A stretch of DNA of 64,000 nucleotides, from the NCBI GenBank assembly GCA_902567235.1, contig CACFLX010000004.1, positions 27,473 through 91,472 of the forward strand. The letters are read 5' to 3'. The DNA is from an uncultured Pelagibacteraceae bacterium. Its GTDB lineage: Bacteria > Pseudomonadota > Alphaproteobacteria > Pelagibacterales > Pelagibacteraceae. The position numbers and the translations under genes are program-made. Each line of letters starts with the position of its first letter. The stretch's first letter is position 1. Shown one piece after another: positions 10,668 to 13,080 of this stretch. Below the pieces are notes generated by a model. That model worked only from the letters and a program-made list of their open reading frames with translations, searched no databases and had not been told where the DNA came from.

Positions 10668-10728
10668 GAATAAAATATTGAATCTATTTATTTTACTTTT
10701 ATATTAATAATGTTGGTTTTCCAACTAC

Positions 10729-10970
10729 GACGATAAACGAATTTCGTAATAAGCATTGCGGACGTGGGGGCAGTACCCACCACCTCCACCAATTTCAACT
10801 TATGGGGGTGAATCAGAATCGACGAGTGTCTAAAAGTTATTCTTTCGTTCGGTATTGTTCCGCCGTAAAGGGCTAAATTATAAATGCTAACGAAAGTTAC
10901 GCACTTGCAGCTTAATTAATTTATTAATTAAGTTACGGGGTTCGGGGCACCTGGCAACAGAACGCCCCTT
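10729..10970 (+). ncRNA. ssrA: tmRNA, circularly permuted two-piece form (acceptor piece ending ~10791, coding piece from ~10804)
   Basis: Acceptor 3' end CACCTCC-A-CCA (to 10791) pairs with GGGGGTG (10804-10810), including a G3-U70 pair; GGGGGTGAATCAGAATCGACGAG matches the tmRNA 5' consensus; tag ORF GCT AAC GAA AGT TAC GCA CTT GCA GCT TAA (10886-10915) = ANESYALAA*; alphaproteobacterial coding-piece 3' end GGGGCACCTGGCAACAGAACGCCCC. Outer boundaries approximate. Confidence 0.95.
10940..10969 (+). repeat. 30-bp direct repeat, copy 1 (tmRNA 3' end; putative att site)
   Basis: gttcggggcacctggcaacagaacgcccct, identical to 12941-12970. Confidence 0.95.
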
Positions 10971-11041
10971 AGCATCTTATATTTATCAACAGTTATTTAG
11001 TTAAATTTAATTTTATCCGCTCTGTGTCCGCACTAGTAAAT

Positions 11042-11869
11042 TTAATCTAAATCAATTTGTATAGGTGAATGGTCACTTAATTTTTTTTCTCTATATGAGT
11101 GCAGGTATCTAATTTGATTTACAGATAAATCATCTGATGTAAAAAAATGATCAAACCGCCTTTTAGCTGCTATTTTACCTTTTCTAATAATTGCAAATGA
11201 ATATTCATAGGTTTTGTAAGAATGCTTCTTTCTATAACTATCTTGCATACCTACTGGCTTTAAGTTTTCAAATAAATTTCTTTCAGCTTGATCCCATCTT
11301 TTTCCACTTCCACCCCTGAAGCTTTTCTTAAGTCTGGGTTTGCCCTTTAGTTTCATTTTTTGTGCAAAAGTAATAACGTTATGTCTATGGTTTTCTGATT
11401 GTGGTATATTAAAATCTCCACATAAAATCCTTGGATCTGAACTTGTTGTATTTAAACCTTCAAATATACCCTCTAAAGTTTCAATTTTAATCCAACCATT
11501 AGAAGAACCTGGAGGTATGTATGCATTATAGAATCTAATCTTTTTCTTACCTGTATAAATATTATGATTAAGTATTCTTTCTCTCCACGGAATATTAAAC
11601 TCATTTAAATCTCTCATTTCTAATTTATAATTTGATGCAGTTAAAACTGCTAATTTTCTAGGACCAACTGACAATTTATTATCTTTAAGTAAATCTAGAC
11701 TAAAATGTATATGCTTAAACTTTGGTCTCAAAATTTCATTTATTATTTTGTAACTTTTGCTAGTTACTTCTTGTAAAGCTAATACGTCGGGTTTTTCTTC
11801 ATCAACAATTTTTAATTGTTGTTCTATTATTTTAAAATTTTTACCTAAGTTCCATGATATTACACGCAT
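11042..11869 (-). CDS. endonuclease/exonuclease/phosphatase (EEP) family protein
   Basis: MRVISWNLG, DVLALQEV, ILCGDFNIP, RFDHFFTSDD, LSDHSPIQIDLD: full EEP catalytic motif set. Confidence 0.88.
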   Translation of the reverse strand: MRVISWNLGKNFKIIEQQLKIVDEEKPDVLALQEVTSKSYKIINEILRPKFKHIHFSLDLLKDNKLSVGPRKLAVLTASNYKLEMRDLNEFNIPWRERILNHNIYTGKKKIRFYNAYIPPGSSNGWIKIETLEGIFEGLNTTSSDPRILCGDFNIPQSENHRHNVITFAQKMKLKGKPRLKKSFRGGSGKRWDQAERNLFENLKPVGMQDSYRKKHSYKTYEYSFAIIRKGKIAAKRRFDHFFTSDDLSVNQIRYLHSYREKKLSDHSPIQIDLD

Positions 11870-11913
11870 GAACCACGATCCCTAAAATTTTTTTCATTAT
11901 TCAATTAACTTTT

Positions 11914-12609
11914 TTAATTTGTTGTACAAGTCATATAAGGTTGGCCAATACCACCACTTTGCCATCTACAAGTACTTCTTTGGTTTGTATTGGTTTGAGT
12001 TTGTGTTGTTGATCCACTTAATAAACCTAAACCCAATTGAATTAACATTTCACTAGCTTTATCTTGTCTTTTTCTTTGAAACTGTTCAGCTGCCTGAACG
12101 TTGCCACCTCTTTTGATATCAAGCTCAACTAATTTTAAAACACAATCACCAAACTTTTCTGTTCCAGGTGTAAAACCTATTTCTTTACAAGTTGAGGAAT
12201 GTGCTCCAATTGGCGTTGTGAAGGAAGCAGTATTACTTCTAGATACTCCCTCACCAATATAAAATTGCATACCATCATATTTAATTGGGATTCCACCAAC
12301 TTCATATTGTTGGCTACACTCTCTAGGAGTATAGTAAACTTTCAATCCATCTGTATTTTTTGGATTGTAGCAAAGTTTATAATTAGACGATACTTTTTCA
12401 CTCATCTGTTCATAACTTATCTCTATTGGTTTTGAACGCGGACAACTTCCTCCAAATTGGTTTTTTAAGAATGCATCACTATATCTAGGATCTTGATACT
12501 TTGTCATATCACTTGTGCAAAAAATTAGATCTAATTTTTCACCTGCATTACTATTGACACTATACGCTAATCCCAAAACAAGAACCATGATCCATAAAAG
12601 TTTTTTCAT
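11914..12609 (-). CDS. hypothetical secreted, Cys-containing protein
   Basis: Signal peptide MKKLLWIMVLVLGLAYSVNSNAG; TCKEIGFTPGTEKFGDCVLKLVEL segment; Gln/Thr-rich linker; C-terminal CRWQSGGIGQPYMTCTTN. Confidence 0.75.
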   Translation of the reverse strand: MKKLLWIMVLVLGLAYSVNSNAGEKLDLIFCTSDMTKYQDPRYSDAFLKNQFGGSCPRSKPIEISYEQMSEKVSSNYKLCYNPKNTDGLKVYYTPRECSQQYEVGGIPIKYDGMQFYIGEGVSRSNTASFTTPIGAHSSTCKEIGFTPGTEKFGDCVLKLVELDIKRGGNVQAAEQFQRKRQDKASEMLIQLGLGLLSGSTTQTQTNTNQRSTCRWQSGGIGQPYMTCTTN

Positions 12610-12614
12610 TATAT

Positions 12615-12839
12615 CTACTTGCTCTTTTTTTTATCACCATCTCTTACAAAAAAATAAATCGTTGCTAATAGACCGTTAACTATTAACCAAACCACTAAGA
12701 TTATAAAAAAACCAATACCAGCTCCTATACCTACTCCTGGCTTGTCAAATTCGCCCCACACAACATATATTTTAGATGCAATAAACAGTACTGCAAATGC
12801 GTTCCAAATATAAAATATATATTTAGTTATTTTTTTCAT
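12615..12839 (-). CDS. hypothetical small two-TM membrane protein
   Basis: 74 aa with two hydrophobic segments and a KKKSK tail; directly upstream of the secreted protein in the same direction. Confidence 0.65.
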   Translation of the reverse strand: MKKITKYIFYIWNAFAVLFIASKIYVVWGEFDKPGVGIGAGIGFFIILVVWLIVNGLLATIYFFVRDGDKKKSK

Positions 12840-12940
12840 GATTCATGATCCTAGCACAGAAATTCTGTCCGCACTATATCCGCACTTGGGTTGCAAAACC
12901 CCACTATTCAATTCAAATTATTCGCGAATAATGTTACAAA

Positions 12941-12970
12941 GTTCGGGGCACCTGGCAACAGAACGCCCCT
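12941..12970 (+). repeat. 30-bp direct repeat, copy 2 (orphan tmRNA 3'-end fragment; putative att site)
   Basis: Identical to 10940-10969; preceded by GTTAC and a 16-bp palindrome as in the tmRNA layout, with no tag ORF or acceptor piece. Confidence 0.93.
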
Positions 12971-12994: not shown

Positions 12995-13080
12995 TGGTGC
13001 GGTCAGAGAGATTTGAACTCTCATGGGCTAAGCCCACACGGCCCTCAACCGTGCCTGTCTACCAATTTCAGCATGACCGC
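12995..13080 (-). tRNA. tRNA-Leu (anticodon GAG), CCA encoded
   Basis: Reverse complement GCGGTCATGCTGAAATTGGTAGACAGGCACGGTTGAGGGCCGTG...GAGAGTTCAAATCTCTCTGACCGCACCA; variable arm; anticodon loop TTGAGGG. Confidence 0.95.

Follow-up and report, generated by a model that had tools for sequence, protein, structure and literature searches.

Tandem genomic islands at the 3' end of ssrA, the gene for transfer-messenger RNA (tmRNA), and integrase-less cis-mobilizable elements (CIMEs) are already known. In Dehalococcoides, such islands lie in tandem, are bounded by a short direct repeat of the ssrA 3' end and are linked to serine recombinases; some of them carry an integration module while 15 do not, and the latter were suggested by the authors to be cis-mobilizable (PMC3146451). 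Cluster K1 mycobacteriophages possess a tyrosine integrase whose 24-bp core lies at the 3' end of tmRNA; in their phage attachment site (attP) this core is flanked on both sides by paired 11-bp arm-type repeats whose sequences differ between close relatives (PMC3203893). Repeats of tRNA ends mark additive islands such as the additive flexible genomic island at a tRNA-Lys site of 'Ca. Methylopumilus', and Tycheposons are described as large (4-200 kb) tRNA-associated elements with a tyrosine recombinase (PMC10872708). Here, we describe a 2-kb element in a 64-kb stretch of DNA (referred to in full as the window) from an uncultured Pelagibacteraceae bacterium of the SAR11 group. This element is situated at the 3' end of a permuted two-piece tmRNA gene and encodes three proteins. 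With a probability of roughly 80%, we judge it to be a non-autonomous integrative mini-element that is mobilised in trans by tmRNA-specific integrases and is addressed to them by arm sites.

The initial annotation of the window had proposed a small island framed by a 30-bp direct repeat. This repeat is exact, with copies on the plus strand at 10940-10969 and 12941-12970 (spacing 2,001 bp), and it is not a product of chance: no further match with up to three mismatches was found in the window, and dinucleotide shuffles yielded none. A longer alignment of the two copies (10926-10969 versus 12927-12970) retains 89% identity over 44 nt. The first copy forms the 3' terminus of a complete tmRNA gene, since the Rfam model RF01849 (alpha_tmRNA) matches over its full length (230.7 bits, model positions 1-355 of 355) and ARAGORN reports the tag ANESYALAA. 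Just as had been proposed, the second copy is devoid of a tag or acceptor piece and is followed by a tRNA-Leu(gag) gene and then nadA, while the DNA between the copies holds three minus-strand open reading frames (ORFs; 275, 231 and 74 amino acids), none of which was identified by Pfam analysis as an integrase. The island thus separates the tmRNA gene from tRNA-Leu and nadA; in relatives with an empty site (L093, L101, L111, L114, L140, L157), tRNA-Leu follows within about 20-30 bp of the tmRNA attachment site (att). Two features had escaped the initial annotation. One is a third copy of the core with two mismatches, which the same genome carries in its rnhA-thrC interval (G000:C10:28678-28707; L003, L051); no cassette adjoins it, and the same spot holds cassettes in L153, L238 and L277. 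The other is a pair of repeats inside each end of the element.

When the locus is compared across relatives, the site is found empty, differently occupied or tandemly occupied. The same three genes and second repeat are thus not fixed among close relatives, a state that the initial annotation had named as speaking against an island. Within the genus, the core was matched in 74 of 101 genomes and the tmRNA att was located in 67; 20 of the 101 contain at least one att-to-att element (up to 8 kb), which is sited at tmRNA in 12 of these 20, and 33 possess a core copy outside tmRNA. Some relatives carry different genes at the tmRNA site, and one harbors five or more cassettes in a tandem array, among them one with an iron/manganese superoxide dismutase gene. 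Over all loci in the Pelagibacteraceae, we collected 123 distinct att-to-att elements of 197 to 4,600 bp (median 1,088 bp), the ends of which were compared by end-family alignment; an earlier k-mer enrichment had been swamped by the tRNA-Leu of empty sites. A scan of GTDB genomes with the right end of the element returned 101 stretches, with Pelagibacteraceae or Pelagibacterales in all of the titles listed. Close downstream of pnp, most sampled genomes lack a core copy; in some there is a cassette or a copy of the core, either full or degenerate. Core copies and cassettes were also observed in or near type IV pilin-like gene clusters (L052, L281, L302).

Sequence comparisons further show that a segment of the window element has moved. 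Its left 907 bp, which span the left end and the greater part of the endonuclease gene, are 97.7% identical to an element that lies behind rnhA in L238; L234 has a similar match. Because the rnhA genes of the window host and the L238 host share only 83.0% identity, this segment has moved between loci and species. The endonuclease-family protein itself is 97.8% identical in amino acid sequence to its homologue in the L238 element, and the second cargo gene has a distant relative inside an element of L272. Both the 66-bp left end and the approximately 93-bp right end of the window element recur with unrelated cargo after pnp and rnhA.

Each element end contains paired direct repeats of about 8 bp with an 11-bp period, at a distance from the core of about 45-60 bp on the left side and 77-90 bp on the right. 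Pairs matching at seven or more of eight positions occur in 52% of the left and 66% of the right end windows, compared with 2% of interior windows. The sequences of these repeats are hypervariable across elements (e.g., TCCGCACT, TGTACGGGA, TGGCACA, ACTCGTCC, GGTCGGCC), and the left and right repeats of a given element resemble each other: the mean best match is 14.09 of 19 positions, which was reached in 0 of 20,000 permutations of the partners (11.44 ± 0.14). This matching holds within the right-end classes as well (0, 1 and 1 of 20,000 for R1, R2 and R3, respectively), although such counts are not exact probabilities since related elements are not independent. In the window element, too, paired repeats are present in this layout inside both ends. 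As integrase-bearing SAR11 elements share the layout, we regard the repeats as putative arm-type sites to which an integrase would bind.

These findings bear on the nature of an island without an integrase, for which the initial annotation had left a remnant, a satellite or a helper-dependent element as options. The att-bounded island itself is supported, and a helper-dependent element fits better than a remnant because both ends and the matched arm repeats have been kept across many elements with unrelated cargo. We consider it unlikely that larger elements with an integrase suffered internal deletions and left the cassettes behind as dead remnants, which were then inherited vertically. Such an origin would explain why the window element has no integrase and why its ends are like those of integrase-bearing elements, and it could draw on the degenerating att copies in some arrays (e.g., L308) and on the rnhA/thrC core copy without a neighboring cassette; however, the cargo is diverse (199 ORFs in 135 families) and mostly unlike satellite genes, a near-identical segment is present at a different locus of a distant species, and both ends with their matched repeats are still intact.

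Related elements at the tmRNA site do carry integrases, a point for which the initial annotation had asked that other islands be inspected. In two genomes, an integrase gene (L352, 330 amino acids; L371, 332 amino acids) lies directly after the tmRNA att and begins about 95-100 bp from it. The two proteins are 52% identical and mutual nearest relatives in our search (next matches at most 34%), and by profile they are P2/HP1/lambda-like. L371 contains a complete 6.15-kb element composed of the tmRNA att, the integrase, small genes, a 733-amino-acid DUF5906 protein (primase-like) and a perfect second att; the latter is preceded by ACAAAGTTC, as in the cassettes, and followed by a further cassette of 2.4 kb. 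The L352 element is incomplete because the locus lies at a contig end. Its arm repeat, TGGCGTCATGGTGGCGTCA, is matched at 19 of 19 positions in the right end of an integrase-less element from another species (L035) and at 17 of 19 in three other elements; matches of at least 14 of 19 were reached by 18 of the 244 windows at cassette ends and by 2 of the 1,531 interior ones. At tRNA-Arg, a 6.4-kb SAR11 element likewise combines a 332-amino-acid integrase and a primase-like protein with matched repeats at both ends, and related integrases at tRNA-Met, tRNA-Ser and other sites have repeats of similar layout and other sequences just upstream of their genes.

The survey of SAR11 integrases yielded several further observations. 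Elements with integrases of about 315-335 amino acids at tRNA-Arg, tRNA-Met, tRNA-Ser and other sites (L332, L339-L349) resemble phage satellites, in that several contain primase-like genes and no structural genes were seen in them. Integrases of the same family are located beside DNA cytosine methylase-like genes in L348, L358 and L359, and these neighbors suggest integrase-borne restriction-modification elements. Related 314-amino-acid integrases, some with an in-frame stop, adjoin tRNA-Met (L364, L366, L367, L369, L370), with type I restriction-modification-like neighbors in L364, L366 and L367. Prophage-like regions (L170-L173, L177, L178, L333, L335) have integrases at tRNA-Leu(tag), tRNA-Thr and other sites, and in those at tRNA-Thr, repeats spaced with an 11-bp period lie some 95 bp away from the tRNA. 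The pelagiphage integrase of L170, used as a viral query, had one close relative only.

No gene matching PF00589 was found near any att copy in the 101 genus genomes; the prophage integrases among the PF00589 matches are situated at tRNA-Leu, tRNA-Thr and elsewhere, with none at tmRNA. The usual single PF00589 match in the genus is a conserved tyrosine recombinase of about 305-318 amino acids (L180:4778-5695, L062-L092), which scores below the XerC/XerD cut-offs. In principle, this universal SAR11_0551-like protein, encoded in hypervariable region 2, could move the cassettes while another factor binds the repeats; it is present genus-wide, and HTCC1062 possesses a probable phage integrase in hypervariable region 2 (PMC2217521). 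Such a role is nevertheless quite improbable, as the protein is never encoded near an att copy and seems from its sequence to start directly at the SAM-like core-binding domain with no obvious arm-binding N-terminus, and as the tmRNA site has dedicated integrases of its own, accompanied by the same arm repeats.

The unit common to all elements is the 25-mer GGGGCACCTGGCAACAGAACGCCCC, whose sequence can be parsed into a 7-bp centre with a 9-bp arm on either side, the arms being imperfectly inverted, and would thus conform to the normal core geometry of tyrosine recombinases. Its derivation from tmRNA is indicated by the loop CACCTGGCAACAGAACG, which also terminates permuted tmRNAs on viral contigs; the stems differ. 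The core copies in tmRNA genes show no variation. In 207 copies outside tmRNA, mismatches amount to at most 2.9% at positions 6-20, 24.6% at position 1, 8.2% at position 2 and 4-8% at positions 21-25, and variable outer positions around a nearly fixed interior are what one would expect of a recombination core. A class-wide search found the core 17-mer to be absent from almost all other Alphaproteobacteria sampled, and we therefore confined the search to the SAR11 family. It is very improbable that the 25-mer is instead an RNA element (a terminator or tmRNA-like hairpin) copied for regulation with incidental cargo between its copies: it does form a conserved end of permuted tmRNAs (the 3' end), in phages as well, its copies sit just after pnp, rnhA and other genes, and hairpin-like or degenerate versions occur downstream of some pnp genes, but the cargo bounded by the copies is exchangeable and has conserved inner ends at either side, integrases adjoin the core, and a hairpin leaves the matched repeats unexplained.

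Matches to the core on viral contigs were considered as attP sites and rejected. All eight IMG/VR contigs with a 22-mer match and most of the 57 with a 17-mer match represent phage tmRNA genes, and a few GC-rich matches seem to be coding sequences that match by chance. No IMG/VR viral contig was found to carry the element's right end together with the core, and the 30-mer had no real match in the INPHARED phages. On the viral contigs L054-L061, ribonucleotide reductase-like genes adjoin the contig's own permuted tmRNA with a SAR11-type 3' end.

In the favored model, the mini-element comprises an att core copied from the 3' end of tmRNA, a short conserved end on each side, a pair of arm-type-like repeats inside each end, and cargo. 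A related, phage-satellite-like integrase/primase element of about 6 kb at the tmRNA site would supply the tyrosine integrase in trans; by binding the arm repeats and recombining the core, this enzyme would excise and insert the mini-element. Insertion could target tmRNA, att copies left by other elements (which would create tandem arrays), and secondary sites after pnp and rnhA. The arm-repeat sequence of a cassette would determine which integrase moves it. Rare integrase/primase elements would provide the integrase and common small cassettes the core and arm sites. As read from the sequences, this proposal draws together the att repeats, the empty or alternative occupancy, the movement, the matched repeats, the integrase elements of the same layout and the one near-identical arm; from these we infer binding of integrase to the repeats, mobilisation in trans and its occurrence at the present day. 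Several points weigh against it. The integrase-bearing form was found at tmRNA in only two genomes, and no integrase with the arm type of the window (TCCGCACT) was found in the sample. Some elements lack detectable repeats, kinship among tandem elements weakens the permutation test, and neither excision nor a circular form was observed. The full core at secondary sites may have been a tmRNA-like terminator originally or may have been created by insertion. More tentatively, SAR11 may possess an integron-like, helper-served cassette system in which all cassettes share the core and are addressed by their hypervariable arm repeats. Each cassette would then be moved only by integrases whose arm-binding domain matches, and the available helper satellites would determine the cassettes in circulation.

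Table 1. Features of the tmRNA-sited element and its flanks (positions in the window).
Feature	Position	Strand	Basis
Intact ssrA (permuted two-piece tmRNA gene), target in the host	10674..10971	+	RF01849 and ARAGORN
Left att core, 25 bp, 3' end of tmRNA coding piece	10944..10968	+	Exact repeat; same 25-mer bounds 123 elements
Element left end, conserved	10970..11035	+	89-95% identity over 66 bp to other-cargo elements L277, L245, L037
Left arm-type-like repeat pair TCCGCTCT-GTG-TCCGCACT	11016..11034	+	11-bp period; 16/19 match to right pair
Cargo gene 1, endonuclease/exonuclease/phosphatase family, 275 aa	11042..11869	-	PF03372, E=1.8e-11
Cargo gene 2, hypothetical, signal-peptide-like N-terminus, 231 aa	11914..12609	-	ORF call
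Cargo gene 3, small membrane-like protein, 74 aa	12615..12839	-	ORF call
Element right end, conserved, class R1	12852..12944	+	86-95% identity to other-cargo elements L277, L245, L236, L298, L037
Right arm-type-like repeat pair TCCGCACT-ATA-TCCGCACT	12868..12886	+	11-bp period
16-bp palindrome ATTATTCGCGAATAAT in right end, beside right core	12917..12932	+	Conserved among right ends of class R1
Right att core, 25 bp	12945..12969	+	Exact repeat; 30-bp repeat 12941-12970
tRNA-Leu(gag), right chromosomal flank	12995..13080	-	ARAGORN; adjoins tmRNA att in empty-site relatives

Of the cargo genes in the window (Table 1), the second has no Pfam family above cut-off and the third had no family match. 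Among 100 representatives of the collected cargo, known domains are few (polysaccharide lyase, GIY-YIG/NUMOD, DNA methylase, superoxide dismutase, SET, DUFs); some proteins match candidate anti-phage families, and no single function accounts for the set. Most cargo ORFs (167 of 199) run opposite to the core and 32 run with it. Right-end classes other than R1 have different inverted repeats at the position of the palindrome.

SAR11 bacteria are the most abundant bacteria of the ocean and have very small genomes with few prophages; to our knowledge, no integrons have been recognised in them. attC sites have been sought in SAR11 hypervariable regions and were not found (PMC2217521). If correct, trans-mobilised cassettes would explain how single genes are exchanged at defined points without the machinery being kept. 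Since the core is fixed while the arms vary, and sequence allows helpers to be matched with passengers, these elements would also offer a natural series for studying how the arm-site specificity of integrases has diversified and whether it controls who mobilises whom.

Compared with the described systems, the SAR11 elements share with those of Dehalococcoides the tandem ssrA 3'-end islands, with and without an integration module, in a streamlined genome; in contrast, tyrosine integrases of about 330 amino acids take the place of serine recombinases, copies are found after pnp, rnhA and other genes and not only downstream of ssrA, and the cassettes measure about 1 kb and possess matched arm-type repeats (PMC3146451). 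A tmRNA 3'-end core with flanking paired repeats that vary between relatives is also typical of the Cluster K1 attP (PMC3203893). Those phages, however, are whole temperate phages at a tRNA-like 3' end, whereas in SAR11 a permuted gene is targeted at its non-tRNA-like 3' end, direct repeats occur at both ends and most elements lack an integrase. Like CIMEs, the window DNA is att-bounded at both ends and has no integration or transfer genes (PMC3146451); a CIME-like tandem cassette beside an integrase-bearing element is seen in L371 and is absent from the window. CIMEs move in cis by accretion (PMC3146451), while each SAR11 element has retained matched putative arm sites of its own, an indication that it can be recombined separately in trans.

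The additive island of 'Ca. Methylopumilus' similarly contains mostly unknown genes; its site is tRNA-Lys, and the portions of the report considered here mention neither an arm-site analysis nor a helper (PMC10872708). Like phage satellites (PICI and PICMI; PMC10803314), the elements of L371 and L332 have an integrase, a primase-like gene and small genes, and no structural genes were seen in them; the window element differs in that integrase, primase/replication and regulatory genes are all absent. An integron platform, with IntI and attI by the array, was not recognised, as no PF00589 gene lies near att in the 101 genomes and the integrases at the site are P2/lambda-like; nor do the elements have attC sites, since the core is a 25-bp tmRNA derivative with separate arm repeats and ORFs lie in both orientations to it (167 opposite, 32 with). 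With its 2 kb, its tmRNA site and no recombinase, the window element is unlike a Tycheposon. Compared with a typical tmRNA integrative element of the tyrosine-integrase type, it has the 3'-end repeats with an intact gene, and empty sites occur, but it has no integrase of its own. We found no published description of a SAR11 tmRNA integrase in the open-access literature, our coverage of which was incomplete, so that an earlier description is possible. Arm-site matching and the cassette scale of these elements appear to be new.
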